Positions 24,169 to 50,721 of a stretch of 64,000 nucleotides of DNA are shown piece after piece. Location: contig NZ_CP101323.1 in NCBI RefSeq assembly GCF_024300825.1, positions 248,001 to 312,000 on the forward strand, read 5' to 3'. Under the pieces are notes generated by a model, which was given only the letters and a program-made list of their open reading frames with translations, did not search any database and was not told where the DNA came from. This DNA is from Natronomonas gomsonensis (GTDB lineage: Archaea > Halobacteriota > Halobacteria > Halobacteriales > Haloarculaceae). Position 1 is the first letter of the stretch, and each line of letters opens with the position of its first letter. A program made the translations under genes and the position numbers.

Positions 24169-24948
24169 ATGAACGATAGACAGGAACAAAAACAACGCAC
24201 GATTCAGTCTGTTGATAAGGCCTGCCGTATAATTAGGATGCTGCGAGAGTTAGACGGTGCAGGTGTAACGGAGATAGCCGATCGGATGGATATGCCAAAA
24301 GGTTCTGTGCATACCTATCTGAATACCCTGAAGCAGAACGATATCGTGTGCAAAACTGGTGGTCAGTACCGTCTTGGGTTCTTTTTGCTCGAACTCGGGG
24401 AAGAGATCAAACACAAAAACCAGGTGTGTCAGTTCGCACAGGGGCCACTCGATGAGCTGGCTTCGGAGACCGGTGAGTTGGCCCGTCTTGTCCTACGAGA
24501 GCAGGGATACGGTGTGTACTTGGACAAATCTGAGGGCAAAAAAGCGATCGAAACCACGATTCTACCTGGACAGCGTGAGTACCTCCACTACACGTCTCAG
24601 GGGAAGGCTATCTTAGCTCACCTCCCAGAATCAGAAGTTCGGAAAATCATCGATAAACATGGATTGCCCAAACAGACAGAGAATACCATTACGGATCCTG
24701 AGGCGCTGTTCGAGGAGTTAGCGGAGATTCGTGAACGGGGGGTTGCCTTCAGTCAGGGCGAACGCACCCGTGGACTTCGGTGTGTATCGACAGCGATTCA
24801 CGAACCAAATGGCGATGCCGTAGCTGCAATCGGCGTTTGTGGGCCAACGAATCGCATGCGTGACGATCGGTTCCGGAAGGAAATCCCGGAAATCGTTCGC
24901 GACAAAGCAAATCTCATTGAAATCAATATGCAGATGGCTATGAATTGA
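24169..24948 (+). CDS. IclR family regulator 1
   Basis: From ATG 24169 (MNDRQEQKQ) the protein has 259 residues. The N-terminal winged helix-turn-helix reads IIRMLRELDGAGVTEIADRMDMPKGSVHTYLNTLKQND. The C-terminal IclR ligand domain has the conserved YLHYTSQGKAILAHLPE and GERTRGLRCVSTAIHEPNGDAVAAIGVCGP. IclR proteins commonly sense aromatic or carboxylic metabolites and control their degradation genes. It begins the catabolic supercluster. A second IclR closes it at 50 kb, with the two HTH regions alike (RELDGAGVTEIA / QELDGAGVSELS). Confidence 0.92.
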   Translation: MNDRQEQKQRTIQSVDKACRIIRMLRELDGAGVTEIADRMDMPKGSVHTYLNTLKQNDIVCKTGGQYRLGFFLLELGEEIKHKNQVCQFAQGPLDELASETGELARLVLREQGYGVYLDKSEGKKAIETTILPGQREYLHYTSQGKAILAHLPESEVRKIIDKHGLPKQTENTITDPEALFEELAEIRERGVAFSQGERTRGLRCVSTAIHEPNGDAVAAIGVCGPTNRMRDDRFRKEIPEIVRDKANLIEINMQMAMN

Positions 24949-25177
24949 TTTCTGACCGTATTTGTTCTAAACAAAGATGGCCCTTCACAAACGATTTCGT
25001 CTCGTTCGGTACCGTACGCAAAATCAGATTCCCGCGTTGACGTCCCTGCCTTCGCGAGTGTAAGAAAGACTTAGGTCAAGATGCCACTCACGTATGACTC
25101 ATCACCCAAACAGCGTTCTCCATAGGTCGGTCGGGTTTGTTAGGAAGTCCTGTACCGGATCACCACCGAGTAGCCGG

Positions 25178-26002
25178 TTATGTACCGACATCGATAGTCG
25201 CGTTAAGCCCTCGTAACTTCTCTATTGCAGAAATCGCTGCGAGATAGCTCGTCTTTTGGTCGTTTGGTGACGGAACGTTTCGAACCGATGTCTCGATTCG
25301 ACCCATCCCACCCTCAGCCGTAATCTCGTGGACGTTGTTCTTCCCGGTTGGATCTGCGACAATCCTGACAGTCGTTTCTTCAGGGCCGACACCCGCGAGA
25401 CTCAGCGTCATCGCGACGTTGATATTTGACGGAAACAGCGGTGCGGCCTCGTCCGCTGTTCCTTCAAAGACGACGGTAGGTTCTGTGATGGCGTTAAGAT
25501 CAATTCCGCTTTCTTCGATATACGGCGCTCCTTTGAGAACACCAAGTGGTTTCGTGGTCTGCAGCGACACGTTTTCTAGTTCCCCAGTTAGCGCAGCGGT
25601 TTTTATCGAGTCGAGACCTGCAATCGAACCAGAAGGTAAGTAGAGATTGCCAGTACTCCGCTCCGCTGCCCTGAAGATATTAGACCGCAATTCCGTATCG
25701 GCAAGCGCTCCGACGCTCATCAGCATGCAAGAGCTTCCTGATTCAAGTGCTCCAACAGCGACGTCATCGACCACGTCTTTGTCGGCAGCCTCGATAACGA
25801 GGTCTGTCTCAAAAACCTCAGCGACCGTGTCGGCTTTTCTAGGATGTTCTCCATGCTTGAACTGGTCGCAAACGGTGGTAACGCGATCTGGATGATGGTC
25901 ATACACAACAGAGAGGTTGACTGGAGCCGTTCCATCAGCGATGTGGGTCGCGATTTCCTTCCCAATCGTTCCACAGCCGACAATACTGACTGAACGAATC
26001 AT
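25178..26002 (-). CDS. L-aspartate dehydrogenase-like protein, copy 1
   Basis: The 274-residue protein has a Rossmann start (IVGCGTIGKEIATHIADG) and the family core RIVADPTGKNNVHEITAEGGMGRIET ... VPSPNDQKTSYLAAISAIEKLRGL, which matches archaeal/Thermotoga AspDH, with the catalytic His in NNVHEI. AspDH interconverts aspartate and iminoaspartate/oxaloacetate with NAD(P). The usual partners for NAD synthesis (nadA, nadC) are not here. It is divergent from a NicX-like gene, and a second copy lies at 36.6 kb in an operon with a dihydrodiol dehydrogenase. A role on an amino acid released in aromatic catabolism is inferred. Confidence 0.88.
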   Translation of the reverse strand: MIRSVSIVGCGTIGKEIATHIADGTAPVNLSVVYDHHPDRVTTVCDQFKHGEHPRKADTVAEVFETDLVIEAADKDVVDDVAVGALESGSSCMLMSVGALADTELRSNIFRAAERSTGNLYLPSGSIAGLDSIKTAALTGELENVSLQTTKPLGVLKGAPYIEESGIDLNAITEPTVVFEGTADEAAPLFPSNINVAMTLSLAGVGPEETTVRIVADPTGKNNVHEITAEGGMGRIETSVRNVPSPNDQKTSYLAAISAIEKLRGLNATIDVGT

Positions 26003-26180
26003 GGGCCACTGTCAGTTAGGCAGAGGTAAAATATTGACGCAACCAAAAGGATTGCTACGCCGAACTCAGTCGTCTGAAGTTACTGTTTCACGAAGAGACG
26101 CCGGCCGGGCAGTATACAAGCCAACGATAGCTGCGCCGCACAAAACATATATTCGAGGGGGAAAACACCTCACATGAACC
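26003..26180. promoter_or_regulatory. Divergent promoter region between AspDH-like 1 and NicX-like 1
   Basis: The 178-base gap serves both genes. Towards the NicX-like gene, AAAACATATATTC at about 26141-26153 is a plausible TATA element 27-39 bases before its start codon. No strong palindrome stands out. Confidence 0.4.
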
Positions 26181-27236
26181 ATGGAAAAAACAGGGTTGCT
26201 AGTGCCACTATTCCGTCGGCAAATGGAACACTGTCAGGTAACGTCTGAAGAGACCGTTGCGCTAGTAACGGACACAAAAAGTCCACGTGAGTTCGTTGGG
26301 GCTTGCTTCGCCGCCGCTGAGGACCTTGATGCAGACGTGTTCGAGGTACAGATTCCTGAGTACGGTCGCAATTCCGTATCCCCCGAGATATCCGAGGGTC
26401 AGGGCGGCACACTGCGCCTCTCCAATGGCCCAGTCGCCGCCTGTAAACACGCCGACATGGTGTTTGACTTCACCCTCGAAGGGTTCATCCACGTCCCCGA
26501 GCGCGGTGAGATACGTGATGCTGGAACCCGAATCCTTCGCGTCGGAGCCCGTGAACCGCACTATCTCCGTCGGCTGATGCCCTGGGAGCCCGAGGAGGCC
26601 CAGCGCGTCAAAGAGCGTGTCCAACGGCACCGCGACCTACTGGCCGAAACCGACGAGATGCGTATTACCTCCGAATACGGAACGGACGTAACGATGGAAG
26701 TCGAACCGAGCACGGCATTCGACTCCTACGGGTTCGTCGATGAACCCGGTAAATGGGACGTCTGGGGGCAAAACATGGTCTCGAATTATCCGTCGAACGT
26801 TGACGGGACGATTGTAATCGCACCGAGCGATTACAACGTTGTCCCCTTCGCGGAGTATGTTGACTCGGCCATCGAATGTGTCGTCGAGGACAACTATATC
26901 GTTGAAATAAACGGCGAAGGCGGAGACGCCGAGTTGATGCGCGGCCACCTCGAAAGCTACGACGACCCGGATGTCTGGGCGACGAGCCACTTCGGATGGG
27001 GGCTCAACCCCAATGGAACGTTCTACAACATGGCACTTCACGACCGAAAGCCCGACGAAGCGGGCGTAAGCGCCAGTGAAGGGCGGGTCTGGGAAGGTAA
27101 CATGCTCTGGAGTACCGGTCCGAACACTCATGAGGACCGCTATGCACCGTGTCACTACGACATCGCACAGAAGAACTGCAGTGTCTATCTCGACGGCGAC
27201 CCCGTCGTCGAGGAGGGTGAGGTCGTCGTTGAGTGA
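26181..27236 (+). CDS. NicX-like 2,5-dihydroxypyridine 5,6-dioxygenase family protein, copy 1
   Basis: The 351 residues belong to the M29-aminopeptidase-fold family that includes NicX, an Fe(II) enzyme opening the dihydroxypyridine ring. His270 (TSHFGWGLNPNG) and His325-x-Asp327 (APCHYDIAQK) have spacing close to the NicX metal triad known to me as His265/His318/Asp320. The ORF runs MEKTGLLVPLFRRQMEHCQ at the start to a normal end. It may act on a pyridine intermediate of kynurenate catabolism; a leucyl aminopeptidase is the other option, but the HxD pair favours dioxygenase. Copy 2 is at 47 kb. Confidence 0.82.
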   Translation: MEKTGLLVPLFRRQMEHCQVTSEETVALVTDTKSPREFVGACFAAAEDLDADVFEVQIPEYGRNSVSPEISEGQGGTLRLSNGPVAACKHADMVFDFTLEGFIHVPERGEIRDAGTRILRVGAREPHYLRRLMPWEPEEAQRVKERVQRHRDLLAETDEMRITSEYGTDVTMEVEPSTAFDSYGFVDEPGKWDVWGQNMVSNYPSNVDGTIVIAPSDYNVVPFAEYVDSAIECVVEDNYIVEINGEGGDAELMRGHLESYDDPDVWATSHFGWGLNPNGTFYNMALHDRKPDEAGVSASEGRVWEGNMLWSTGPNTHEDRYAPCHYDIAQKNCSVYLDGDPVVEEGEVVVE

Positions 27237-27510
27237 GCGTCGGGGCGAATCTCGGAGCAGCCACCACAACCACCAACTATCGACGTACCGCTGATTCCAG
27301 CGGCCACGTTGAGTGTCATTTCAACTGGGTCGTTCCATCGACGTTACCACATTGAACACCGCAACTCGAGCCACGGAAGTCTAGTCTCGACAGGCGCCAC
27401 CATCCGTGATACGGCCGCGGTGAAATGAGAGACTGTACTTACTGGACCGAGCGCGGAGAAAATCCATACACACAGGACGTCGCTATCGTGATGCCTCCGT
27501 ATCGGCTGGC

Positions 27511-28467
27511 TCACTCCTCACGATTCGAGTTCGCTAGCCGTGACCGAATGTGATTCGTCAATCGGTCCATCGCTTCGTCGGCCGTATCGACTTCGTCAGT
27601 CAGGCTCAAAAACCCGTGTGCAAGGGCCGGATAGTGGTCGTGAGTGGTCGGGACGCCACTTGCTTCGAGTTTTTCTGCGTACTCGATACCATCATCTCGG
27701 AGTACGTCCATACCAGCGGTTACGACGACAGCGGGGGCGACGCCGGAGGGGTCTGATACCCGCCGAACCGCGGCGAGAGGGTTGTGCTTTTGGATGGGAT
27801 ACTCGAGATATTGGTCCCAGAACCACTGCATATCTCGGCGGGTCAGGAGCGGCTGGTCGCTGTGCTGAACGTATGACTCCGTCTCCCGAACGACGCCTGT
27901 AATCGGATACAGCAGGAACTGTCCATCTACGGTTAGGTCAGTCTCCATCGCACGGAGTGCCGTTGCAGCTGCAAGGTTGCCCCCCGCACTTGTCCCTGCG
28001 ACGCCGAGAGTGTCTGAATCGGCACCCAGTTCGTCTGCATGTTCGGCCGCCCACTTGAGCGCAGAAAACGTGTCGTTGAGCGCCGCGGGGAACGGGTGTT
28101 CCGGCGCCAGGCGGTAATCCACCGAAATAACCAGACACTGGCTTCGACTCGCGAGTTCCCGACAGATGTTATCAGCGGAATCGAGGGTTCCGAGTGTCCA
28201 CCCGCCGCCGTGATAAAAGACCAAGACCGGCGGATTCTCTGTTTGGGGATGATACACCCGAATCGGGATGTCGGATTCTTCACCCTCGATTTCGAGATCT
28301 CGAACCAACGCAACGTCGGTCCCCCCGCCACGGGAGAAAAGTTCGTCTTCGACTCTCCGGGCACACTGAACGGACATTGTGCTCCAGTCTGGAATCCCGT
28401 TTCCATCCATCTCTTCGATTACGGCCGCCATCTGTGAGTCCATTTGCTGGCTCATCTTGTGAACCAT
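27511..28467 (-). CDS. HSL-family alpha/beta hydrolase, candidate formamidase
   Basis: The 318-residue protein has the oxyanion motif HGGGW (VFYHGGGWTLGT, about residue 84), nucleophile Ser in GVAGTSAGGNLAAA, Asp in GMDVLRDDGI and His in LAHGFLSL. These are hallmarks of hormone-sensitive-lipase-type esterases, a fold also used by N-formylkynurenine formamidases (HGGxW) and by the N-formylmaleamate deformylase NicD. Its place between the NicX-like gene and the indoleamine dioxygenase makes either deformylation plausible, but an ordinary esterase cannot be excluded. Starts at 28467 or 28455 are equally possible. Confidence 0.85.
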   Translation of the reverse strand: MVHKMSQQMDSQMAAVIEEMDGNGIPDWSTMSVQCARRVEDELFSRGGGTDVALVRDLEIEGEESDIPIRVYHPQTENPPVLVFYHGGGWTLGTLDSADNICRELASRSQCLVISVDYRLAPEHPFPAALNDTFSALKWAAEHADELGADSDTLGVAGTSAGGNLAAATALRAMETDLTVDGQFLLYPITGVVRETESYVQHSDQPLLTRRDMQWFWDQYLEYPIQKHNPLAAVRRVSDPSGVAPAVVVTAGMDVLRDDGIEYAEKLEASGVPTTHDHYPALAHGFLSLTDEVDTADEAMDRLTNHIRSRLANSNREE

Positions 28468-28565: not shown

Positions 28566-29678
28566 TTAGAGGCCAGCAACATCCTCGATGGCGTCGGTTA
28601 GCGCCTCAATCGAGTCGCGGTCGTGTTCGCCCATATGGCCAATGCGGAACGTTTCCTCGCCCAATACCGACCCATAGCCGTTGGAAAAGACGAAGTCATA
28701 TTCCTCGGATACTGCGTCGATGGTCTCGGCAACGTCGATGCCGCGAGTATTCTCGATACAACTGACCGTCTGGGATTCGTATCCCGTTTCTGGGAAGACA
28801 TCGAAGTGTTCGCGGGCCCATTCGCGGGTGTATTCAGCCATCTCGCGGTGACGCCGGTCCCGGGTTTCGTGACTCTCTTCGAGCATGTGTTTCATCTGCT
28901 CGCGATAAGCCAACATGATTGGGATGGCTGGCGTCGAGTGAGTCTGTCCCTTTCGGTCGTAGTAATCCAGCGTCCGCTGGAAGCCACCGTACCACGACGC
29001 CGACTCCTTCTGGCGTTCCCGCTCGTAAGCCTCGTCACTGACGACACAAACCGCTAACCCCGGCGGCATTGCGAAGGCTTTCTGAATCGAAGTAAAGATT
29101 ACGTCGATTCCGTGGGCGTCGATATCGACGTAGTCGCCTCCTAGCGCAGAGACGGCATCCACGACGAAGTAGGTGTTTGGATACTCTGCGACGACATCGC
29201 CGATCTCTTCGACTGGGTTACGGACACCTGTAGAGGATTCGTTCATCACACAGGTGACGACATCGTAATCCCTGTTGCGTTCCTCGAGAGCCGTCCGGAC
29301 GTCATCGGGTTTGACTGCCTTCCCCCACTCGTACTCGACGCGGTCGACGTTCTTTCCGAGACGTTCGGCGACGTTCGCCTGCCGCTCGCTGAAGCTGCCG
29401 CAGGTCGTACACAGAACGTTGTCATCGACGAGATTGAGAATCGAACTGTCCATGAATTCGGTTCCGGACCCTGTGAGAACGATGACCTCGTTGTCGGTGT
29501 CGAGGAACTCCTTGGTGTCCTCGACGATGGTCGTATAGAGGTCCGTCATCCGGTCCATCCGATGGCCGAACATCGGCTGGCTCATTGCCTCGATAACGTC
29601 CTCACGAACCTCGGTTGGACCAGGAATGTACAACGTCTTGTCGGGATAATCGCCGGTGTATTCACGTTTCTGAGTCAT
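28566..29678 (-). CDS. Class V aminotransferase, alanine-glyoxylate / serine-pyruvate type
   Basis: PLP enzyme of 370 residues from ATG 29678 (MTQKREYTGDYPD). The start IPGPTEVREDVIEAM and SQPMFGHRM are typical of the AGXT group, and the PLP Lys is in FTSIQKAFAMPPG. Homologues such as archaeal broad-specificity aminotransferases act in phosphoserine synthesis. The next gene upstream is serB, transcribed the same way with 187 bases between, which supports a serine role. It lacks the features of kynureninase known to me, although a catabolic transamination is not ruled out. Confidence 0.85.
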   Translation of the reverse strand: MTQKREYTGDYPDKTLYIPGPTEVREDVIEAMSQPMFGHRMDRMTDLYTTIVEDTKEFLDTDNEVIVLTGSGTEFMDSSILNLVDDNVLCTTCGSFSERQANVAERLGKNVDRVEYEWGKAVKPDDVRTALEERNRDYDVVTCVMNESSTGVRNPVEEIGDVVAEYPNTYFVVDAVSALGGDYVDIDAHGIDVIFTSIQKAFAMPPGLAVCVVSDEAYERERQKESASWYGGFQRTLDYYDRKGQTHSTPAIPIMLAYREQMKHMLEESHETRDRRHREMAEYTREWAREHFDVFPETGYESQTVSCIENTRGIDVAETIDAVSEEYDFVFSNGYGSVLGEETFRIGHMGEHDRDSIEALTDAIEDVAGL

Positions 29679-29865
29679 GCATTTCACCCAGGCAGTATCC
29701 ACTGAGTAGCGAAACAGTATGGTACTTTTGGTGTGTAAAATCATATCATACCGGCTGGTAGAAACGCGGTCTCTAAACGGAGCACGTTCTCTTTGAGCCA
29801 CGTCTGTGTGCGACGAAGGGGTTCTCAGTAACGTCTGGTGAGACGTGAACGAATCGTCTCTGAAC

Positions 29866-30516
29866 TCAGGCGTTTTCAAGAACGTCGCGGTCGAGAAGTG
29901 TCTCTCGGACGTCTGCCATCGAGTTCACGACGATCTCACAGTGGGGTTCGACAGCTGGCTTGGGATCGAACCCGATCGAGAGCCCAGCTACGTTCAGCAT
30001 TGGTAAATCATTCGCGCCGTCACCGACCGCAACAGTGTCTGCGAGGTCGATCCCAACCTCGCTAGCGAGGGTCTCAAGGGCATCGTCTTTGGTGCCCTCA
30101 ATGAGCGGTCCTTCGACTTCTCCTGTCAATTCGGGTTCGTCGTTCATCGGCAATCGGTTTGAAACGATTCGATCAACGGTCACCCCTTCGCGTTCGAGTG
30201 CGGTCGCGACACCGCGCTCGAAGCCCCCAGTGAGAATCGCCGTTGTCACACCTGCGTCATTCAACTCCCCGATGAGATCAGCAGCCCCCTCGCGGAGTTC
30301 CACTTCGTCAAAGGCGGCGTCGGCATCGGAGCCCGAAAGCCCGTCGAGTAGTGCCGCGCGCTTCCGAAGGCTCTCGGCGTACTCGATCTCGTCGTTCATC
30401 GAGCGTTCGGTTATTTCAGCCATATCGTCGGCCACGCCACACCGATCGCCCAACAACACGGTCATTTCCGAGTCGGAAAGTGTCCCATCGAAGTCGAAAG
30501 CTACGAGTGACATCAT
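29866..30516 (-). CDS. serB: Phosphoserine phosphatase
   Basis: HAD-superfamily enzyme of about 216 residues. Motif I is VAFDFDGTLSDSE with the nucleophile Asp, motif II is TAILTGGFERGV, motif III includes the Lys of EGTKDDAL, and motif IV is VAVGDGANDLPML. It removes phosphate from phosphoserine. SerA is 12 kb away on the same strand. In other haloarchaea that I recall, serA and serB are neighbours, so catabolic genes may have come between them. Confidence 0.9.
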   Translation of the reverse strand: MMSLVAFDFDGTLSDSEMTVLLGDRCGVADDMAEITERSMNDEIEYAESLRKRAALLDGLSGSDADAAFDEVELREGAADLIGELNDAGVTTAILTGGFERGVATALEREGVTVDRIVSNRLPMNDEPELTGEVEGPLIEGTKDDALETLASEVGIDLADTVAVGDGANDLPMLNVAGLSIGFDPKPAVEPHCEIVVNSMADVRETLLDRDVLENA

Positions 30517-30737
30517 CACCCGTTTCTGTGCCCCCGAATAAACAATTTTAGATTACGAGCGGTAACCGACAGTATCAACTGACAATCGGTACTGCCGGCT
30601 CTGAAACTCCCCCAACTATCCGACTAAGTCGAAGAGGGAGTTGTCGGCAACAGCATTTCGCCGTCGTGTTCCAACCCATTCACGGTGGCTAATTCAATGC
30701 CGTACACTACGTTGCAGTATCGTACACTTACTCCTAT

Positions 30738-30805: not shown

Positions 30806-31975
30806 ATGTCCGAAGCAGAACTTCTGGAAGAAGTCGATAAAGAGCGCGGATTCCTTCCGGCGCGTAATCCGTTGACCGAATTCGATACCGACCATCATCG
30901 GCCCGCCGTCGCCAGGTACCTACGTCACTTGGACCAACTCGGGACGGAACTTCCCGACCTTGTCGAGTCGGATAACGTCAGGCAGCCCCTTCGTTCGATT
31001 GAAACGCCACCGGCCGGTTTAGTCAGCGAACTCAACGACCATGAAATCCACCGACTCTGCCAACTATCCGGCTTTTTTGCGAGCGCATACGTTAACCACG
31101 ACCTGCCGGATGGGCAGTCTATTTCCACCCTCCCGGCCGGGATAGCCGTTCCACTTTACGAAACCTCCATGGAGATCGGTAGGCAACCGATTCTGTCCTA
31201 CGACCTTCTCTGTCTCCATAACTTCCAACTGAAGGATCCCGATGGTGAAATCACACTCGATAATCTCGATGTGGTTCAACGCTTTACACACTACGACGAC
31301 GAGCGGTGGTTCGTCATCGTCCACGTTGCCATTGAGGCAGCCGCCGCCCCGGCAATAAGTGCGTGTCCGGTCGCACAACAGGCCATTCGTGACGACGACC
31401 CGCAACAACTACAGGACGCTTTAGAGACCATCGCCGAGTCACTTAGCGAGCAGACCAAAATCATGCAGCGAATGACCGAGGGCAATGATACGGAAGTCTT
31501 CGCAAACGAGTTTCGACCGTACTACGATGGCTTTGACGACATCGTCTACGAAGGCGTTGATGAGCTAGAGGGACAGCCACAGTCGTTCCGTGGTGGGTCA
31601 GGTGCACAGAGTTCTCTCCTCCCTTCCCTTGACGCGACGCTCGGAGTAGAACACGAAGCGACCGAGATGACCGAAAAGCTCGGGGATATGCGGAGCTATA
31701 TGCCGCCGCTACATCGCACTACCATCGAGCAACTGGACAACGGCCCTTCGATTTCGGAGTACGTAACCGAGCAAGGATCGGACAGTCTCCGGTCGACGTA
31801 TAACAACTGTATAGCTGAACTCGAACAGTTCCGGCGGACCCATTTCAAACAGGTAATCCAATACATTCGCGAAGTGACCGGGGAAACAGAGGGAACTGGT
31901 GGAACGAATTACATGCCATATCTCCGAAAGTTAGAACAGGAAACGAAGTTATCACACGTCGGCGAGAAATCATGA
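30806..31975 (+). CDS. Indoleamine 2,3-dioxygenase
   Basis: Heme enzyme that opens the indole ring of L-tryptophan to N-formylkynurenine. The 389 residues contain IDO marks: the active-site block FRGGSGAQSSLLPSLD, DMRSYMPPLHR, the proximal heme His (His346) in RRTHFKQVIQYI, and GTGGTNYMPYLRKL at the end. The N-terminal small domain is present and length is usual. The family is common in animals and fungi but sparse in prokaryotes, and the alternative bacterial enzyme TDO is a different sequence. Downstream comes an aminotransferase on the same strand. This is the key gene that points the cluster to tryptophan. Confidence 0.93.
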   Translation: MSEAELLEEVDKERGFLPARNPLTEFDTDHHRPAVARYLRHLDQLGTELPDLVESDNVRQPLRSIETPPAGLVSELNDHEIHRLCQLSGFFASAYVNHDLPDGQSISTLPAGIAVPLYETSMEIGRQPILSYDLLCLHNFQLKDPDGEITLDNLDVVQRFTHYDDERWFVIVHVAIEAAAAPAISACPVAQQAIRDDDPQQLQDALETIAESLSEQTKIMQRMTEGNDTEVFANEFRPYYDGFDDIVYEGVDELEGQPQSFRGGSGAQSSLLPSLDATLGVEHEATEMTEKLGDMRSYMPPLHRTTIEQLDNGPSISEYVTEQGSDSLRSTYNNCIAELEQFRRTHFKQVIQYIREVTGETEGTGGTNYMPYLRKLEQETKLSHVGEKS

Positions 31976-32322
31976 TTGTAAACGCACCACTACCACTGGC
32001 GGTTTCGTCAACGGCCTGGATTCAGTCCCCGCGTTTTACCGCCAGCGAAGTTTGGTGATCTCGTCAATAAACACGGCCGCAGCCACAACGCCGCCCACAT
32101 CTACGATGGGTGAATCGCGAACAGAGCAACCCCCGGAGTTCTTGAAATCGGCAAGGGCGTATCCACATCGGTTCCGGCCGGTCTACCGACGCCGAGAGAG
32201 GCATGCCGGGTGTTTCACCTAATGCCAAAACCGAACTGTCTTCGACACCAGAAAGAGCTTGTATTGGCGCTCTAACTCAGAAGAGCGCAAGGTATATGTC
32301 GGTTCTCTGCGAGGGTTGGTGC
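31976..32322. other. Gap between IDO and aminotransferase, no gene
   Basis: No intact gene is seen. One frame (about 32015-32270) is open except for a TGA at 32111-32113 and shows ordered-looking residues (FGDLVNKHGRSHNAAHIYDG, then ANRATPGVLEIGKG), so it may be a decayed fragment. I could not assign a family. A TATA-like GGTATATGTC at 32291-32300 precedes the aminotransferase start by about 25 bases. Confidence 0.4.
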
Positions 32323-37413: not shown

Positions 37414-37456
37414 ACAGTGACAGTACGAACGAGCCAAGAAAAATCATTCGAAGGTA

Positions 37457-39886: not shown

Positions 39887-39973
39887 GACTCCGTCTAGGG
39901 CAACCCGACTCACCAACATAACCGTTTGGGGATGTGGCAGCATCGCGAGCGCACGACGCGGAAAGTGTGAGGC

Positions 39974-41900: not shown

Positions 41901-42361
41901 CGCCCGACGCCACTGACGACCCGACAATCACTCTCCGCGACGGCGACGAAAAGGTCTCGCTTGCCCGTGAGACGACGCCGACCGGCGAGCGACTTCGCAT
42001 CGAGTCAGACGATGACTCGACACGACTCGACGCGCTCGCACTAGAGAGCCTCACATGGCAAGACAGTGAATTCTTCAGGGGACTCACTGGCACCAACCAT
42101 GTGCCAAACGAGAATGCGGTCCAAACCGACGAGACGCTCCAGATTGGAAACGAGTACACCGTCGTCCAGCTAACCGTATTCGACACGGACAACGGAACGC
42201 GACTGGAAATCGACTCACCAAAGCTCGGTTACGCGTCCCTCCTGAGCGTCGCCGAGCTCGCAGCACTGAGCCGACAAGAAATGTCGCTATTTTCGGACCT
42301 ACTCCACACTCCACTCGGGCCGGTCGACGAACACGACGAGGACCCGCTGTTCCACCACTGA
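41897..42361 (+). CDS. Unknown protein translated with the Rieske dioxygenase
   Basis: 154 residues, very acidic, with no motif I recognise. It begins by ATGA overlap with the beta-subunit stop. The middle (RLDALALESLTWQDSEFFRGLTG) and the end (LSVAELAALSRQEMSLFSDLLHTPLGPVDEHDEDPLFHH) look like structured segments. It lacks Cys-based metal motifs, so it is not a ferredoxin. Its coupling to both subunits suggests an assembly, stability or electron-transfer helper. Confidence 0.65.
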   Translation: MTPDATDDPTITLRDGDEKVSLARETTPTGERLRIESDDDSTRLDALALESLTWQDSEFFRGLTGTNHVPNENAVQTDETLQIGNEYTVVQLTVFDTDNGTRLEIDSPKLGYASLLSVAELAALSRQEMSLFSDLLHTPLGPVDEHDEDPLFHH

Positions 42362-42375
42362 AATCAACGGCTGTT

Positions 42376-43260
42376 TTATTGATGGTCGCGTGCGCGCTTG
42401 ACGAACGACGCGGTGAGCTCTGCGACCCGACCTTCGCTACCCGTGAAAAAGTGGTCCGCCGCGATGGGTTCGACCTCGACGAGGGAACTAGCTGTTGCCG
42501 TCTCAGCGATCTCCTCGGCTTCCGCAGGTGTGACGTTCCGGTCCGATGAATGCGGAATGAGCAGAAGTGGTACCTCGATGTCGGGCGTCCAATCGATGGT
42601 CGCACACTTGCTTTCCGGCGACCGGTACGATAGGAACGATTCGGCTGTCATCGGGATATACTCGATATCGCCGTCAACCGGGCGTGGCAACGCAACTATT
42701 TCGTTGCCCCGACCAGCGTCGACCAAGTCTCGGGCTTCGTCGACAAAGTTCTCGTAGGCTTCGTCAGGGTCGTCGGAAACGGCCTCGAAGTAGCCACGGG
42801 TCGACCGCTCGCGGATGTCGGCGAAGGGGGCGGCAAGGACGACCGCATCGACGTCCGGGTCGTTCCGCTTCCCCTGATAATAGGCTGCTTCAGTGGCACC
42901 GAGACTCCGGCCCCAAACGACGACTTCGGTGGCACCCTGTGCCGTCGCCCACTCGACTGCGCCCGCGATGTCGCGGTCGATCTCCGCGAAATCGGAACGC
43001 TCGTACTCCTTTCCGCTGTTCCGCTTGTTGATGGACACACACTGGATACCCTCACGGGCGAGCGGGTAGGCAATCGGAGAGATACCCGCGCCGAGCGCGA
43101 ACCCACGCAGGCCGTGCAGGAAGATGACGCAGGTGTGTTCACCCTCGAACGTTTCGGCGTCGCTTGTTATCTCGAAGCCATCTAGCTGGCGGCCGTCGTC
43201 GGCCTCGTAGTTAATCGTGCGAAGGTCGATGTCCGATGGTGTAGGCTCCATTACTGGCAT
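42376..43260 (-). CDS. Alpha/beta hydrolase of the catabolic cluster
   Basis: 294 residues with nucleophile Ser in VWGRSLGATEAAY (about residue 118), the HGLRG oxyanion region (IFLHGLRGFALG), Asp in PHSSDRNVTPAE and His in ADHFFTG. The type is that of dienelactone/X-Pro-like hydrolases. It follows the ThDP decarboxylase gene by 59 bases on the same strand. In a ring-cleavage pathway it could hydrolyse a carbon-carbon bond, an amide or an ester; the substrate is unknown. Confidence 0.85.
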   Translation of the reverse strand: MPVMEPTPSDIDLRTINYEADDGRQLDGFEITSDAETFEGEHTCVIFLHGLRGFALGAGISPIAYPLAREGIQCVSINKRNSGKEYERSDFAEIDRDIAGAVEWATAQGATEVVVWGRSLGATEAAYYQGKRNDPDVDAVVLAAPFADIRERSTRGYFEAVSDDPDEAYENFVDEARDLVDAGRGNEIVALPRPVDGDIEYIPMTAESFLSYRSPESKCATIDWTPDIEVPLLLIPHSSDRNVTPAEAEEIAETATASSLVEVEPIAADHFFTGSEGRVAELTASFVKRARDHQ

Positions 43261-43319: not shown

Positions 43320-44981
43320 TCACCAAATCTTCCTAGAAACGTATTCGGCGGTCGGATCGATATAGATATCAAGAACAACGTGTTCGTCGGCCTCAAATGC
43401 CGTTTCTAGCGCAGGACGAATCCGGTCCGGGTCCTTAACTGTAATGCCCCGAGCGCCGAACGACTCCGACATCGCCGCGATATCTGTCGGTGGGATATCA
43501 GTTCCGATTTCCGCGTGACCATCGGACCGCTGGTAGTTCCAAATCATCCCGTATTTGGAATCGTTCATGACGATGGTGACCGCATTAGTGTCGGTTTCCA
43601 CAGCTGTCGCGAGTTCCATATTGCACATCAGAAAGCCACCATCACCGATAAGATTTACAACTTGACGGTCAGGGTCGACTAGTTTTGCCGCATTTCCAGC
43701 TGGAACCGGGAATCCCATCGAGTCGTATAGCCGCGAGTGCTGGAAAGAGTTGGTGGCCCGATATTCGAATGCATCGTTTGGCCAAGCACCTCCAGCAGCC
43801 CCTGCATCGCCGGTGACGATGACATCGTCGTCAGCGACAGAACGGAGTTCATCCATTATGACGAGCGGATGAATCGGTGTCTGGTCCCGTACTTCATCAA
43901 GGTAAGCTTCGATTTCTTCACGAACCCGCTTTGACTCGGCACGAACAGCGTCCTGATACTCGGGGTCAGTGGTGCCTGCAGTCTCGGTCAACACGTCCGC
44001 AGCTGCCGAGAGGGTCGTTTCGATGTCTCCGGTGACGATCGCCGCCGCGCTTGATTGTGGGAACTCGGCCTCCCCAGAGTCGAAGTAGACGATATCAACA
44101 TCATCAGAAGTTCGGTCGCCGAGCACTGCTGCCTCGTGTGAACTTGGCCGGACCCCAACAGAGAGTACGGCGTCGGCGTCGGCCAGCGCCTTGACTGCAG
44201 CCGGATGGTCTGACATGCCAACTGTACCAGCAAACGCTTCGTGATCGTTCGGGAACGAATCCGGATAGTGTCGTGGACAGACCACTGGGCAGTCGAGGGC
44301 CTCGGCCACGTCAATGAGTTCGCTAGTCGCAAAGGCCCGGAGAACACCCTTCCCAGGGTATAATACGCGCTTTTCGGCCTCTTCGATGGGGGCAAGTGCG
44401 TCAACCACTGCTTCGGCTGATGGCGGCGTCTCAGAGATGTGAGTCCAATTAAAGGCAGACTCAGGGATATCAACCGACTCCATGAGGATTTCTTCATCGA
44501 TACCAACGAACACTGGGCCAGGCCGCCCAGTAGTCGCGATGTCGAACGCACGGTTCAACGCTTCCGGCACCCGCTTGGGTTCGTGAACTTGGGTGCTCCA
44601 TTTGGTCGCTGGCTCGAAAGCCTTCTCGAGGAAGTGCTGATCGTCAACACCATGAAGAGACTCGGTTGGGGCGTCAGTTGGCAATACTGCACTAACGAGT
44701 ACCATCGGTGAGGCTGCTGTGTATGCCTGTGCTACACCTGTCAACGCGTTAGTTCCACCTGGCCCGGCAACGGTAATCGCGACGCCCGGATCACCCGTTA
44801 GTCGTCCTCGGACGTCTGCCATGACAGCCGCATTGTACTCATGGCGGGCAGTGACCACATCCACATCACGCTCGTACAGCCCATCGGCGATGTCTACCGT
44901 TTGGTTCCCGAGCAATGTGTAGACCTCTGAAACGTCATTTTCCGCGAGCACACGCGCTACGGAATGGCCTGCTTCAGTCAT
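43320..44981 (-). CDS. ThDP-dependent decarboxylase (acetolactate synthase/benzoylformate decarboxylase-like)
   Basis: 553 residues from ATG 44981 (MTEAGHSVARVL). The catalytic Glu lies in TARHEYNAAVMAD, the middle domain is present, and the ThDP-Mg motif is GDGGFLMCNMELATAV ... MNDSKYGM. Enzymes of this fold decarboxylate alpha-keto acids. In the route proposed here, loss of CO2 from the oxo-acid side chain left after extradiol cleavage would need such an activity. The gene has no acetolactate small subunit beside it, which argues against branched-chain amino acid synthesis. Confidence 0.9.
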   Translation of the reverse strand: MTEAGHSVARVLAENDVSEVYTLLGNQTVDIADGLYERDVDVVTARHEYNAAVMADVRGRLTGDPGVAITVAGPGGTNALTGVAQAYTAASPMVLVSAVLPTDAPTESLHGVDDQHFLEKAFEPATKWSTQVHEPKRVPEALNRAFDIATTGRPGPVFVGIDEEILMESVDIPESAFNWTHISETPPSAEAVVDALAPIEEAEKRVLYPGKGVLRAFATSELIDVAEALDCPVVCPRHYPDSFPNDHEAFAGTVGMSDHPAAVKALADADAVLSVGVRPSSHEAAVLGDRTSDDVDIVYFDSGEAEFPQSSAAAIVTGDIETTLSAAADVLTETAGTTDPEYQDAVRAESKRVREEIEAYLDEVRDQTPIHPLVIMDELRSVADDDVIVTGDAGAAGGAWPNDAFEYRATNSFQHSRLYDSMGFPVPAGNAAKLVDPDRQVVNLIGDGGFLMCNMELATAVETDTNAVTIVMNDSKYGMIWNYQRSDGHAEIGTDIPPTDIAAMSESFGARGITVKDPDRIRPALETAFEADEHVVLDIYIDPTAEYVSRKIW

Positions 44982-45169
44982 CACCTGCTTATCGAACAGG
45001 TACAAAAATAAAGTTACCCCTGTTTCTGTTATCTCAGTTTCAATTGATCTCCTCATAGATCGTTGAAATCAACAGGTACATTTTTTGCAATCGTCGTCAG
45101 TACTGGTAACACGCATGATGAGTAGAACCGAACCAGTATGGACCGACGTAATGTTGACAGGGGGATATA

Positions 45170-45979
45170 ATGGAATCTGAATCTGCCGACAGCAGCGGCT
45201 TCGGTAGGGTCCGAGAGTCCGCGAAAGCAACTTCTAGAATGCTCTTCCGGGCCTCGCCAGTCATTGTTTTGCTCCTCCTGTGGCAAGCAATAGGTACTCT
45301 TGGAGCACTTCCGGTATATGTTCCTGCACCGACGACCATCATTGCTTACCTTGGCGTGATGCGGACCGAGGGAATTCTGATCGAGAATTCGTGGGCCACA
45401 CTCCAACTCGTTTACTTTGGGTTCACCGGTGGATCAGCGCTTGGCATCATCGTCGGCGTCATCACTGGCCGAATTGCTATCTTCGGGAAACTGTTTGACC
45501 CACTTGTCTCAGTGACATACCCCATCCCAAAAATCGCGTTATTCCCCATCTTCGTTATCTGGTTCGGTATTGGATTCCTTTCGAAAGCTGTTGTCGTGTT
45601 CCTCGCAGCCTTTTACCCCGTATACATCCACACTTTCGATGGTGTTAGAGGGGTTCCTGAGCTCCATATTTGGTCTGCTCAGAACTTCGACGCATCACGA
45701 CTGCAGATTCTCACGGAGGTCGTTATCCCGGATAGTCTCCCGCAGATTCTCTCCGGCCTTCGGGTTGGCCTTGCTCTCTCATTCATTGTCGTCTTCTCAG
45801 CCGAGCTTATCCAGTCTGATCTCGGACTTGGACAACTAGCACTCCAAGCACGACAGTTCAACAACTACGAGCTCATGTTCAGTGCAATCTCTATGATCGC
45901 ACTGTTCGGTGTTATCCATGACCGACTACTACTGCTCACGCGTCGTCGATTGCTCTACTGGCAGGGGGATGAACACTAA
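45170..45979 (+). CDS. ABC importer permease 1, SsuC/TauC-like
   Basis: 269 residues, about six transmembrane helices. The EAA-like loop HIWSAQNFDASRLQILTEVVIPDSLPQILSGL marks the BPD_transp_1 family. Its stop overlaps the next permease gene by one codon (TAATG). Together with permease 2 it probably forms a heterodimeric channel for the lipoprotein-bound substrate. It lies divergent from the ThDP gene. Confidence 0.92.
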   Translation: MESESADSSGFGRVRESAKATSRMLFRASPVIVLLLLWQAIGTLGALPVYVPAPTTIIAYLGVMRTEGILIENSWATLQLVYFGFTGGSALGIIVGVITGRIAIFGKLFDPLVSVTYPIPKIALFPIFVIWFGIGFLSKAVVVFLAAFYPVYIHTFDGVRGVPELHIWSAQNFDASRLQILTEVVIPDSLPQILSGLRVGLALSFIVVFSAELIQSDLGLGQLALQARQFNNYELMFSAISMIALFGVIHDRLLLLTRRRLLYWQGDEH

Positions 45980-46806
45980 TGAGCGAAGTAGCGCGAATAA
46001 ATGACTGGTTCAGTCGGCTGAACGATTGGGCTGAGCAGACATCGTACCCGATTGGTTACGTTTCAATCATCGGGCTCCTCGTTGTTTGGCAGATAGGAGC
46101 CTTGCTGGTTTCATCATCATACGGGCCTCCACTCATCCCACGCCTCGAGGTTGTCGCGATGGAACTCTATACTATGCTTATCGCTGAGGGGACTGCGTAC
46201 TCCCACATTGCCGCGACGCTATTTCGAGTATTCGTTGGCTTTACTGCGGCACTTGTGGTCGGTATCCCGGTAGGGCTTTTAATGGGCTCAAGTAAGCGCG
46301 TTGAGTTCGTTCTCGATCCGATCATCAGTACGTTCTATCCAATCCCCCGCATAGCGTTTTATCCGCTTTTACTCACCATTCTGGGCCTCGGTCATGCACC
46401 AAAACTGGTGATTATCTTTTTAGAATCACTCATTCCGATTCTTTTGGGTTCCTACTATGGAGTCCAAGGCGTGAGTGAGCTACACATCTGGTCCGGGGAG
46501 AACTTTGGCGCATCGAAACTCGAGATTTTCCGGGATATCGTCTTCCCAGCAAGCCTCCCGTACATCTTTTCAGGTGTCCGGATGGCGATGCCGATTGCAC
46601 TCATCGTGACTGTCGTAACAGAGCTCGTTTCGTCGAGTCAGGGCATTGGTTATATTATTATCCAAGCGCAGGGGTCCTTCGATTACGAGACGGTGTTCGC
46701 TGGAGTCGTACTCATTTCACTAATCGGGATTTTCTTCGACCAAGCCCTTGCACGACTTCGGGAACATCTGCTATTCTGGGCAGGTGACGTCAGCATCGAT
46801 ATGTAG
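45979..46806 (+). CDS. ABC importer permease 2, SsuC/TauC-like
   Basis: 275 residues with about six helices and the ATPase-docking loop HIWSGENFGASKLEIFRDIVFPASLPYIFSGVRM. It is related to permease 1. The start codon overlaps the stop of permease 1, so the two are translationally coupled. Partners: binding lipoprotein at 38.4 kb and ATPase at 49 kb. Confidence 0.92.
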   Translation: MSEVARINDWFSRLNDWAEQTSYPIGYVSIIGLLVVWQIGALLVSSSYGPPLIPRLEVVAMELYTMLIAEGTAYSHIAATLFRVFVGFTAALVVGIPVGLLMGSSKRVEFVLDPIISTFYPIPRIAFYPLLLTILGLGHAPKLVIIFLESLIPILLGSYYGVQGVSELHIWSGENFGASKLEIFRDIVFPASLPYIFSGVRMAMPIALIVTVVTELVSSSQGIGYIIIQAQGSFDYETVFAGVVLISLIGIFFDQALARLREHLLFWAGDVSIDM

Positions 46807-47026
46807 GAGCGCTACGCTTACTCTGCTCGAATTTTTATCGTTCTGTATGGCGAAATCATCTCTCCTCGTGCGATATTCTGATACCTTGTTTTAGGGACTC
46901 ATAGCACATCCGTAACTGAGACAGCAGGGTGGCGTGTACGCCGATACGAATCGTTTTACGGCCAAAAGAGGTCCGCAATCGCTGCCCAAATAGGGTGTCT
47001 CGGCTGTTGGCCTGGGCTAAACAGGT

Positions 47027-48088
47027 TTAGACAACGTCCTCTACGACATCGCCGTTTTCAACGACTGCTGTACCATCGAGGTAGACACTGCAGCCTTTCT
47101 GTGCGATGTCGTAGTGACACGGCGCGTATCGGTCAACGTGTGTGTTCGGGCCAGTGCTCCAAAGCATATTGCCCGACCAGACACGCCCCTCACTCGCGCT
47201 GACACCCGTTTCATCGGGCTTCCGGTCGTGGATCGCCATGTTGTAGAACTCACCGTTGGGATTCAGTCCCCAGCCGAAGTGGCTCGTTGCGAAGACATCC
47301 GGATCATCATAGCTCTCCATGTGTCCACGCATCAACTCGGCGTCTCCGCCTTCGCCGTTTATCTCAACGATGTAGTTGTCCTCGACGACACATTCGATTG
47401 CACTGTTTACGTAGTCCGCGAACGGCACGACGTTGTAATCGCCCGGTGCGATCACTATTGTCCCTTCGACGTTCGTCGGATAGTTCGAAACCATGTTCTG
47501 TCCCCAAACGTCCCATTTCCCCGGCGTATCGACGAAGCCGTAGGAGTCGAACGCTGTATCGGACTCAACTTCCATGGTGAGGTCTGTGCCGTGTTCCGAG
47601 GTAATCCGCATCTCGTCGGAGTCGGCTAACAACTGGCTGTGCTTTTGCACTCGCTCTTTGACCTCCTGTGCTTCTTCCTCAGTCCACGGCATGAGACGCC
47701 GGAGGTAGAACGGTTCGCGTGCACCGACGCGGAGGATGCGTGTGCCAGCGTCACGAATCTCGTCACGTTCGGGAACGTGGATGAATCCCTCAAGCGTGAA
47801 GTCGAACACCATATCCGCGTTCTTACACGCTTCTACGGGGCCTTCCGGCAGACGCAGTGTCCCTCCTTGGCCTTGGGAAACGTCCGGACCCACGGAGTTC
47901 CGCCCGTACTCGGGGACTTGGACCTCGAATATGTCCGCTCCGAGGTCCTCTGCAGCTGCAAAACTGGCACCGACGTATTCTCGTGGGCTTTTGGCGTCCG
48001 TGACCAGCGCAACGGTTTCACTCTCGTTCACTTGGCAGTGTTCCATTTGCCTCCGGAACAGAGGCACTAACAGTCCTGCTTTCTCCAT
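47027..48088 (-). CDS. NicX-like 2,5-dihydroxypyridine 5,6-dioxygenase family protein, copy 2
   Basis: 353 residues from MEKAGLLVPLFRR (48088), homologous to copy 1 over the whole length. The metal-triad positions are kept: His in ATSHFGWGLNPNG and His-x-Asp in APCHYDIAQKG. The two copies differ in many places, so they are old paralogues rather than a recent duplication and may have different substrates or be subunits of one enzyme. Its 3' end faces the permease genes. Confidence 0.82.
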   Translation of the reverse strand: MEKAGLLVPLFRRQMEHCQVNESETVALVTDAKSPREYVGASFAAAEDLGADIFEVQVPEYGRNSVGPDVSQGQGGTLRLPEGPVEACKNADMVFDFTLEGFIHVPERDEIRDAGTRILRVGAREPFYLRRLMPWTEEEAQEVKERVQKHSQLLADSDEMRITSEHGTDLTMEVESDTAFDSYGFVDTPGKWDVWGQNMVSNYPTNVEGTIVIAPGDYNVVPFADYVNSAIECVVEDNYIVEINGEGGDAELMRGHMESYDDPDVFATSHFGWGLNPNGEFYNMAIHDRKPDETGVSASEGRVWSGNMLWSTGPNTHVDRYAPCHYDIAQKGCSVYLDGTAVVENGDVVEDVV

Positions 48089-48325
48089 ATGCACTCAATT
48101 GTACTGTTAGCAGAGTAAAAACTGTTCCGCAATATGTCAGAAATATTTTTCAACCTAGTTTCATCTTGGCATCGGCTCACACAGCGAAGAGACCGCAAAA
48201 AGGTCCGGCGCCATATCGCTGCTTGGCCGAACTGTCGTATCGATTTCGAACCACTCTAGCAGCATTATAAAGGATACTCTTCTGACAGAAAGATATATGT
48301 GGTTGGGGAGAATTTTCGAAATCGT

Positions 48326-48907
48326 ATGGTTGTAGATAACATGGGCTTAGACCATATAGCCATCAAAGTACGAGATATCGAACAGACCGTTACGTTCTAC
48401 CGGAACATCCTCAACATGGAGGTTTCCGACCGTATCGGGGATCGTGTGGCGTTTCTCCGCACGCCGAATGTCGCAGCGGCATCTCAGCATCATGAGATGA
48501 ACATCACCCAGATGTCTGAGGAAGAACTCGACGTGCTTGAAGAGCGCGGCGAACTCGATCTCGACCTCCATGACTTCGAAGAAGAGTTACCGGAGAATGG
48601 TCCACCGATGCTGCCGACGACGGGGCCAATATACCATATCGCATTCGAAGTACCCGATTTCCAGGCGCTCAAAGCCGCCGAAGAAGGGCTACGTGAGCTC
48701 GATCACCCGATTTATCGCGGCCCCGGTCGCCATGGCCCTGGGGATAACTTCTTCCTCTATTTCCCCGATCCAGACGGATACCCGATCGAGTTGACTGCGA
48801 ACATGGAGGACGCTCCCGAGGAAGGCGGTCGTCCTGCCCGAAAGTGGCCCCAAGAACCCGATACGTGGAACGTTTGGCACGATTCCGAGGAGCTGAAACA
48901 GGAATAA
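48326..48907 (+). CDS. VOC family extradiol-type dioxygenase
   Basis: 193 residues from ATG 48326 (or 48341, MGLDHIAIKV). Likely metal ligands: His in LDHIAIKV, His in PIYHIAFEV, and Glu in YPIELTANME, the H-H-E set of type I extradiol enzymes and glyoxalases. The second module carries an acidic insertion (about residues 60-95). AGATATATGT just upstream (48291-48300) fits a TATA box 26-35 bases before 48326. In the proposed route it would open the dihydroxylated ring. A role as isomerase or glyoxalase-like lyase remains possible. Confidence 0.8.
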   Translation: MVVDNMGLDHIAIKVRDIEQTVTFYRNILNMEVSDRIGDRVAFLRTPNVAAASQHHEMNITQMSEEELDVLEERGELDLDLHDFEEELPENGPPMLPTTGPIYHIAFEVPDFQALKAAEEGLRELDHPIYRGPGRHGPGDNFFLYFPDPDGYPIELTANMEDAPEEGGRPARKWPQEPDTWNVWHDSEELKQE

Positions 48908-48986
48908 CTGGACTCAAGAACTGTTCGAGCGACATGAATCGTTTCAGCCTGCGTTTCAACTCTGACTTTCTACGGGTGCGCGACGT

Positions 48987-49742
48987 TCAGATAGATACTT
49001 CCTCCTGAATCATATCCCAAATCTTCTGCCGGAGATCAGTAAACTCCTCAGTGTCTCTAATTTCAGGACTTCGAGGCCGACCAAACCGCTCAGTAACGTC
49101 GACGACTGCTTCGACGCTACTCGGTCGCGACCCTAACACCACAGTATAGTCCGACAGATAAAGAGCCTCATCGATACTATGCGTGACGAACATACAGGTT
49201 TGGCCGGTTTGATTCCAGATGTCGAGGAGTTCGTGCTGCATCATCTCTCGGGTCTGGGCGTCGAGTGCACCGAATGGTTCGTCCATGAGGAGAACGGAGG
49301 GATTGACAGCAAGGACACGTGCCATCGCAGCTCGCTGTTTCATACCTCCAGAGAGGGAATTCGGATATGCGTCCTCGAATCCGTCGAGTCCAATCATCTC
49401 GATGTACTCTTCGGCTTTCTGTTCTCGCTCTTCCTCGTCGATACCGAGAACCTTCATCCCCCACGTGATATTCTTCTTAATCGACATCCAAGGGAATAAT
49501 ACGCTCTCTTGGAACACCATCCCACGGGACGGATCTGGACCAGTAACCGACGCTCCGTCAACCGTAATCGAGCCTTCTGTTGGCTCGATAAAACCACCCA
49601 GCATGAATAGCAGGGTACTTTTTCCACAGCCTGACGGGCCAAGAACAGTCACAAAATCTCCTTCGTCAATAGATAGGGATACGTCTCCGACCGCAACGAC
49701 TTCTTCGTTGTACACTTTCCGTACCGAGTCAACCTCTATCAT
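48987..49742 (-). CDS. ABC importer ATPase, SsuB/TauB-like
   Basis: 251 residues. Walker A is GPSGCGKST (residues 35-43), the Q-loop is VFQESVLFPW, the signature is LSGGMKQR (130-137), Walker B with catalytic Glu is LLMDEPFGALD, and the H-loop is FVTHSIDEAL. It should power the permeases at 45-47 kb. It lies between a VOC gene and the second IclR gene and is read divergently from the latter. Confidence 0.93.
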   Translation of the reverse strand: MIEVDSVRKVYNEEVVAVGDVSLSIDEGDFVTVLGPSGCGKSTLLFMLGGFIEPTEGSITVDGASVTGPDPSRGMVFQESVLFPWMSIKKNITWGMKVLGIDEEEREQKAEEYIEMIGLDGFEDAYPNSLSGGMKQRAAMARVLAVNPSVLLMDEPFGALDAQTREMMQHELLDIWNQTGQTCMFVTHSIDEALYLSDYTVVLGSRPSSVEAVVDVTERFGRPRSPEIRDTEEFTDLRQKIWDMIQEEVSI

Positions 49743-49950
49743 AGTCCTGTTCTCGTGGAGGGGGTACTACTATTTAACGCTCATGGACGGCACAGCAGCC
49801 CTGAAAACGTTGTTGAGTAATGCGAAACGCTATTCGACAACAATAACAGGAGCTTCTAGACCCAAATTATCCACATCAATGGGATACACCAGTTCTACCA
49901 CTGTTCGGCTTCGCAAAACAATAAAGTAGGACCGGGGCAAATCAGAGAGC

Positions 49951-50721
49951 ATGCCAACACAAAAAGACGTCCCGGTAAAGTCCATCGCGAAGATGGTGGA
50001 TTTGGTACGCACACTCCAAGAGCTAGATGGGGCCGGCGTATCCGAATTGTCCCGGAAACTCGATGTCTCGAAGAGTACAGTCTATAACCATCTGAAATCA
50101 CTCGAAGAATTTGGATACGTCGTCAAGAAGGATGACGACTACTACGTGGGACTTGGCTTCTTGGACCACGGCGAGTACGCCCGGGGGCGCCAGGTCGGCT
50201 ACAACCTAATTCGCGCGAAGGTAAAGGAAGTGGCTGAGGAAACCGGGGAACTGTGTCAGTACCTAGTCGAAGAACACGGATTTGGTAGATTTATTCTACG
50301 AGAGGTCGGCCCTCGAGCAGTAGAAACTAGTTCACGAATCGGTGATCGGGTTTATCTAAACCATGTGACTGCCGGGAAAACCGTCCTCGCCTACTTACCT
50401 GATAAGCGAGTCTCTGAAATCATCGACAAGCGTGGCCTCCCGGGAAAGACCGAACATACCATCACCTCGGTTAAGGACCTGGAAGCCGAGCTCGAAACCA
50501 TCCGTGATCGGGGTTACGCTATCGACAAAGAAGAGCATCTGGAAGGCCTCTACGCCATTGGCGTGCCTATCCGAAACAGTGATAACGAGATTCTGGGATC
50601 GATGAGTGTTGCTGGACCTGCTAATCGAATCAATCGTGAGCAACGCGCCGAAGAAATTGCCCAGGTTCTCCTTGAGACGGCCAACGAGGTCGAACTTTCT
50701 CTCAAGCATTCGCATTCCTAG
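49951..50721 (+). CDS. IclR family regulator 2
   Basis: 256 residues with winged HTH (LVRTLQELDGAGVSELSRKLDVSKSTVYNHLKSLEEFG) and ligand domain (VYLNHVTAGKTVLAYLPDKRVSEII; GSMSVAGPANRI). It resembles IclR 1 and is divergent from the ATPase gene, so it may control the importer or the whole right half. It closes the catabolic cluster. Confidence 0.92.
   Translation: MPTQKDVPVKSIAKMVDLVRTLQELDGAGVSELSRKLDVSKSTVYNHLKSLEEFGYVVKKDDDYYVGLGFLDHGEYARGRQVGYNLIRAKVKEVAEETGELCQYLVEEHGFGRFILREVGPRAVETSSRIGDRVYLNHVTAGKTVLAYLPDKRVSEIIDKRGLPGKTEHTITSVKDLEAELETIRDRGYAIDKEEHLEGLYAIGVPIRNSDNEILGSMSVAGPANRINREQRAEEIAQVLLETANEVELSLKHSHS

Follow-up and report, generated by a model that had tools for sequence, protein, structure and literature searches.

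A catabolic gene island of roughly 35 kb lies in a 64,000-nt stretch of the 3.65-Mb genome of the haloarchaeon Natronomonas gomsonensis (contig C1, positions 248,001-312,000; hereafter the window, and G000 for the genome), where it spans about 15.8-50.7 kb. Our comparisons indicate that the island is a real, conserved two-module system, in which a module around an indoleamine 2,3-dioxygenase (IDO) stands beside a ring-degrading core, and it probably carries tryptophan through kynurenate to central metabolites. A first-pass annotation of 24169-50721 had proposed a complete tryptophan-to-kynurenate degradation supercluster in an archaeon. Pfam, NCBIfam and PDB searches of the window proteins recovered every gene family that it named, and the archaeal host is borne out by orthologous loci in Haloferax, Halostella, Natrialba, Natrarchaeobius and others. 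Its inventory nevertheless overlooked an alpha/beta hydrolase (ABH2), the small protein orf154, a class V aminotransferase (AT5), SerB, and also SerA, PdxS and TrpB, which lie to the left of its start (15833-20583).

The IDO module comprises three genes (coordinates are those of the window, with strand): IDO (30806-31975, +; PF01231 E 6e-77, 259.5 bits against a cut-off of 26), the HGGGW alpha/beta hydrolase ABH1, a probable kynurenine formamidase (27511-28467, -; PF07859), and the class I aminotransferase AT1, a probable kynurenine aminotransferase (32203-33501, +; PF00155). The core was defined from the gene neighbourhoods of the closest Rieske homologs in haloarchaea and has 11 recurring genes plus an IclR regulator. 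It includes the Rieske dioxygenase alpha subunit (40012-41391, +; PF00355/PF00848), the beta subunit (41388-41900, +; PF00866 5e-34) and orf154 (41897-42361, +), together with a short-chain dehydrogenase/reductase (SDR) of the BphB/HcaB-like cis-dihydrodiol dehydrogenase type (37457-38275, -). Two vicinal oxygen chelate proteins, VOC1 (39458-39943, -) and VOC2 (48299-48907, +), and a thiamine diphosphate (ThDP)-dependent enzyme (43320-45056, -; PF02775/02776/00205), which has orthologs at 68-86% in each of the nine other core genomes, also belong to it. The remaining members are ABH2 (42376-43260, -; PF12146), whose GRSL and DHFF motifs are conserved, the NicX-like ring-opening dioxygenase NicX2 (47027-48094, -), the aspartate-dehydrogenase-like AspDH2 (36586-37437, -) and the transporter EamA2 (35703-36578, -; PF00892), which is present in core clusters. 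IclR2 (49951-50721, +; PF01614/PF09339) closes the island.

Evidence that the two modules act together comes from G197, a genome from the genus of Natrarchaeobius and thus from a different family. IDO and the core occur together only there and in the window genome. In G197, IDO, AT1 and the formamidase are found inside the same Rieske/SDR/VOC/NicX/AspDH set, and the linkage described in the first-pass annotation therefore recurs elsewhere. The genes run VOC2-EamA-AspDH-NicX-SDR-EamA-RieskeA-RieskeB-orf154-IDO-AT1-TrpB-PdxS-ABH1-AT5 and continue SerA-SerB-ThDP-SBP-VOC1-permeases-ABH2-ATPase-IclR, about 38 kb in all, with IDO-AT1 directly adjoining Rieske-orf154. The IDO proteins of the window and G197 are sisters (tree support 100/100), and so are the island copies of TrpB (clade 100/100) and PdxS (97/93). 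The AT1 proteins are 75% identical and form a clade private to both, the next best in 392 genomes being 57%. The Rieske and NicX trees, in contrast, place the window with Haloferax and Halostella (for Rieske also Salinigranum) and G197 with Natrarchaeobius chitinivorans. One IDO module is thus combined with cores of two separate lineages, a pairing difficult to account for unless module and core act together.

The fate of kynurenine probably also differs from that suggested by most haloarchaeal IDO loci, which adjoin a kynureninase and in many cases an ABH1 ortholog as well (~60% orthologs beside IDO/kynureninase pairs). As the first-pass annotation stated, the window holds no kynureninase, and none scores above the family cut-off in the whole G000 genome, which gives only sub-cut-off matches, or in that of G197. 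Aligned with human IDO1, the window IDO keeps the proximal heme histidine and the GGSxxQSS substrate-pocket segment, and its probable family function is the oxidation of tryptophan to N-formylkynurenine. ABH1 would deformylate this product to kynurenine, and AT1 would transaminate kynurenine to a product that cyclises, so that AT1 is the probable source of kynurenate.

The core itself recurs in haloarchaea of several families, with at least ten clusters besides that of the window, several of them plasmid-borne. Orthologous loci occur in Haloferax elongans, Halostella pelagica, Haloarcula amylovorans, Natrialba chahannaoensis, Natrarchaeobius chitinivorans, Salinigranum rubrum, Halocatena salina and others. 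The importer of these clusters is of the ABC type in the window, Haloferax elongans, Halostella and Natrarchaeobius, and a sodium:solute symporter (PF00474) in several Natrialbaceae and others. Across the 392 genomes surveyed in the order, 11 carry a member of the NicX clade (77% or more identity) and 10 one of the Rieske clade (66% or more); each of these 10 also has NicX (hypergeometric p about 1e-17, with the window excluded and phylogeny ignored). The eleventh genome with NicX is G022, whose Rieske homolog (52%) is encoded about 13 kb away. In its variant cluster (L059, L133), the genes linked to NicX, AspDH, ThDP and ABH2 include those for a UbiD protein and a molybdenum hydroxylase of three subunits, and a two-domain extradiol dioxygenase takes the place of VOC2. 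Molybdenum hydroxylases of this type hydroxylate heteroaromatics, and the cluster probably serves another N-heteroaromatic pathway. This variant supports both an N-heteroaromatic substrate for the core and an extradiol role for VOC2. Another NicX-Rieske pairing occurs at L135 (on C9 of G344), where a second, distant NicX homolog (36-38%) is accompanied by a Rieske alpha at ~45% and a homolog of orf154.

The kynurenate (quinoline) pathway of Pseudomonas is known from biochemistry of the 1960s (EC 1.14.99.2, 1.3.1.18 and 1.13.11.10). Its early steps are 7,8-dihydroxylation, dihydrodiol oxidation and extradiol cleavage, with intermediates given in textbook maps. The order of enzyme families in the island, read from the sequences, appears to agree with this route, as had been proposed. 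The Rieske alpha subunit, a candidate kynurenate 7,8-dioxygenase, is nearest to naphthalene-type dioxygenases (top solved match naphthalene dioxygenase 2b1x, E 9e-95) and weaker to AndAc/AntA. With its beta subunit it would dihydroxylate kynurenate at C7 and C8. The companion orf154 adjoins Rieske alpha/beta across haloarchaea down to ~45% alpha identity (L011-L028). It is small and cysteine-free and is modelled as two beta-beta-beta-beta-alpha repeats (pLDDT 83); compared with known folds, the model gave best matches at a TM of about 0.3 and no confident assignment. The SDR passes NF004849 (331.3 bits, cut-off 330) and does not reach the stricter NF042950 and TIGR03325; it would rearomatise the dihydrodiol. 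VOC2 is a candidate one-domain extradiol dioxygenase. It matches HpaD (HPCD) and catechol 2,3-dioxygenase models below their cut-offs. Across ten orthologs the H,H,E triad, an HH pair and a Y are conserved, in keeping with the ligands and catalytic His of type I extradiol enzymes. Cleavage by VOC2 between C8 and C8a would yield 5-(3-carboxy-3-oxopropenyl)-4,6-dihydroxypicolinate, whose C5 bears the four-carbon 2-oxoacid side chain. After reduction of this side chain, the ThDP enzyme, proposed to be a 2-oxoacid decarboxylase, would leave a 2-formylethyl group.

The later steps, whose order and substrates we infer from chemistry, centre on NicX. Neither NicX-like open reading frame (ORF) of the window has a Pfam match, and P. 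putida NicX (7cn3) is matched over nearly the full length (NicX1, E 1.7e-50; NicX2, E 2.9e-54). The iron ligands equivalent to H265, S302, H318 and D320 are kept, as is His105. The residues E177 and H189, which recognise 2,5-dihydroxypyridine (DHP), are replaced by S and V, invariant in 11 haloarchaeal NicX sequences. The earlier assignment to NicX-like ring opening is thus upheld by homology and iron ligands, but the substrate is probably another one, because the DHP-recognition residues are absent. The partners differ as well. An isochorismatase-type amidase and an Asp/Glu-racemase-type isomerase accompany NicX in the bacterial nic locus of Rhizobium and partly in the other loci read, and neither is found beside haloarchaeal NicX in the window or the core clusters. 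A role as a nicotinate enzyme was rejected, since the bacterial loci around NicX at 36% identity have nic-type partners that the island lacks, and the DHP residues are not the same. Finding AspDH in their place is what one would expect of a ring with a 2-carboxylate. AspDH2 rests on Pfam (PF01958 3.7e-33) and on A. fulgidus AspDH (2dc1, E 4e-36), and its paralogue AspDH1 passes the NadX equivalog cut-off (TIGR03855, 207.0 bits against 206.55).

By analogy with NicX, which cleaves DHP between C5-OH and C6, the haloarchaeal enzyme may split the pyridine ring between the hydroxylated C4 and C5 to give an N-acyl aminofumarate. ABH2, as the proposed amidase, would hydrolyse this ring-opened product to 2-oxoglutarate (or its semialdehyde) and iminosuccinate, and AspDH would reduce the latter, its substrate, to aspartate. 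The carbon balance closes (C10 = C5 + C4 + CO2), and the ending accounts for the glutamate formation reported in pseudomonads. We put forward C4-C5 cleavage and the AspDH ending tentatively, at a little short of an even chance.

Several observations weigh against the proposed pathway. Most core clusters lack IDO and have an importer. At the genome level, the co-occurrence of IDO and core is not enriched (2/10, p 0.13; with the window excluded 1/9, p 0.44). Thus, only part of the single-supercluster proposal holds: the IDO module does lie beside the core in two genomes, but the core is an independent module. The absence of kynureninase alone proves little, because G336 (L064), a congener of the window species, has an IDO with neither kynureninase nor the Rieske core. 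For NicX itself, no substrate besides DHP has been reported (PMC7910607), and both the C4-C5 cleavage and the AspDH step are deduced from chemistry. VOC1 keeps four metal ligands (H,E,H,E) in all aligned orthologs and is more glyoxalase/epimerase-like, and we give it no role in the pathway. Finally, neither an ene-reductase for the side-chain step nor a ferredoxin or reductase for the Rieske step was identified. For this reason 'complete' is too strong a word for the proposed tryptophan-to-kynurenate cluster, although its families and linkage stand.

Since most core clusters are without IDO and co-occurrence is not enriched, the core could degrade another imported N-heteroaromatic acid (e.g. 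quinaldate, xanthurenate or a pyridine carboxylate), with the IDO module a neighbour and not a feeder. It fits the importer, either ABC-type or a sodium:solute symporter, that most core genomes carry. However, it leaves the same IDO clade and a private AT1 clade interleaved with two core lineages in two families, and a core for kynurenate, too, would be expected on its own wherever cells take kynurenate up. We regard it as unlikely, though it deserves to be taken seriously.

A chance patchwork of catabolic genes, gathered by mobile elements and sharing no pathway, is improbable. An ISH3-like transposase and a tyrosine recombinase/integrase do lie at the left island edge (window 12037-15409), several core clusters are on plasmids, and one segment of the island looks acquired from another lineage. 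This segment consists of IclR1 (23986-24948, +; PF01614/PF09339), AspDH1 (25178-26002, -; PF01958/PF03447) and NicX1 (26181-27236, +). Together (23986-27236) they are closer to the G291/G306 core than to the rest of the window core: NicX1 is 93% identical and groups with that lineage in the tree (98/98), and IclR1 is 74% identical to the IclR of the G291 core. They look like the remnant of a second, acquired core. Against a patchwork, G197 brings together the same 20-odd genes once more, differently ordered, and at least ten further clusters show a fixed core. The ordinary breakdown of kynurenine via anthranilate, in which anthranilate or another benzoate would be the substrate of the Rieske enzyme, is the route that the kynureninases of other haloarchaeal IDO loci would suggest, but it was rejected as very improbable here, since no kynureninase passes the cut-off in G000 or G197, the Rieske alpha is closest to naphthalene-type enzymes, and NicX and AspDH would have no role in it.

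Around the tryptophan-to-kynurenate route that we favour, the island carries a further set of genes. SerA, a phosphoglycerate dehydrogenase (15833-17419, -; TIGR01327 616 bits, cut-off 454), has a 76% ortholog in the G197 island, PdxS, the lyase subunit of pyridoxal phosphate synthase, lies at 18246-19166 (+; TIGR00343 440.2, cut-off 438.45), and TrpB, an extra tryptophan synthase beta paralogue (19408-20583, +; TIGR00263 552.7, cut-off 392.45), is 86% identical to the G197 island copy; all three thus have orthologs there. AT5 (28566-29879, -; PF00266), with a serC_3 match below cut-off and a true start probably at about residue 65 of the called ORF, is best read as a phosphoserine aminotransferase. 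SerB, a phosphoserine phosphatase, follows at 29866-30519 (-; TIGR00338 162.7, cut-off 144.15; 75% ortholog in the G197 island). The window copies of SerA and PdxS are second copies in the genome: SerA is present twice in G000 and G197 and once in 7 other genomes compared, and PdxS is duplicated only in G000 and G197 among 9 genomes. The AT5 clade likewise has two copies in both and at most one in the 7 comparison genomes. AT5 or SerB as a kynurenate-branch aminotransferase was set aside, since close orthologs are single-copy elsewhere and SerA/SerB are linked.

With AT5 read as phosphoserine aminotransferase alongside SerA and SerB, both islands would carry the whole serine route together with TrpB. 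TrpB uses serine and indole, and 10/20 other haloarchaeal IDO loci (L061, L062, L063, L066, L068, L069, L071, L077, L079, L080) have a TrpB paralogue no more than 10 kb from IDO, well over a rough chance estimate. These second copies, with SerB and the extra TrpB, could therefore supply tryptophan in place from indole and serine. TrpB also stands near IDO where kynureninase is the next enzyme. It is possible, if doubtful, that free indole is mineralised via tryptophan: serine would be regenerated by SerA, AT5 and SerB, TrpB would join it to indole, IDO, ABH1 and AT1 would lead to kynurenate, and the Rieske/NicX/AspDH core would yield 2-oxoglutarate, aspartate, CO2 and formate. With similar reserve, the amino group might shuttle from AT1 through glutamate to AT5 and serine.

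The remaining island genes are mostly for transport. They include EamA1 (34264-35151, +; PF00892), 72% identical to a counterpart in the G035 core, and an ABC importer made up of an NMT1/SsuA-type substrate-binding protein, SBP (38376-39389, -; PF09084), two permeases (45170-45979 and 45979-46806, both +; PF00528) and an ATPase (48987-49742, -; PF00005). A PEP synthase (20749-23181) was set aside as an island member, as the G197 stretch compared has no copy.

Compared with the Pseudomonas kynurenate pathway, the island has the same enzyme classes for dihydroxylation, dihydrodiol oxidation and extradiol cleavage, but it is archaeal and its NicX/ABH2/AspDH end steps are newly proposed. According to a passage in PMC11354673, citing Horibata et al. 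1961, pseudomonads turn kynurenate into glutamate and alanine, and the glutamate fits our scheme. Our literature searches found no assigned kynurenate-degradation genes and nothing direct on haloarchaeal IDO. The NicX of the P. putida nic pathway shares near full-length homology and the iron site with the island enzymes, whereas the partners here are Rieske, ThDP and AspDH. The IDO-formamidase-kynureninase loci of haloarchaea share IDO and ABH1 orthologs with the island and often TrpB, but the island has AT1 and the Rieske core in place of kynureninase, plus the second serA, serC-like and pdxS copies. The lum operon for riboflavin/lumichrome catabolism likewise brings a Rieske dioxygenase and an extradiol dioxygenase to bear on an N-heterocycle, alongside a thiamin-dependent decarboxylase; its substrate is different, and its abstract mentions neither NicX nor AspDH (PMC12746152).

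If the proposed pathway is correct, the island offers candidate genes for each assigned step of kynurenate degradation and would explain glutamate formation. The NicX clade with its changed substrate pocket is a candidate for a second pyridine-ring dioxygenase activity. A possible indole route is suggested by the linked serine and TrpB genes; breakdown of indole by way of tryptophan with its own serine cycle, together with NicX-type dihydroxypicolinate cleavage, would be new. Rieske-based heteroaromatic catabolism in haloarchaea would then extend to a natural amino-acid product.

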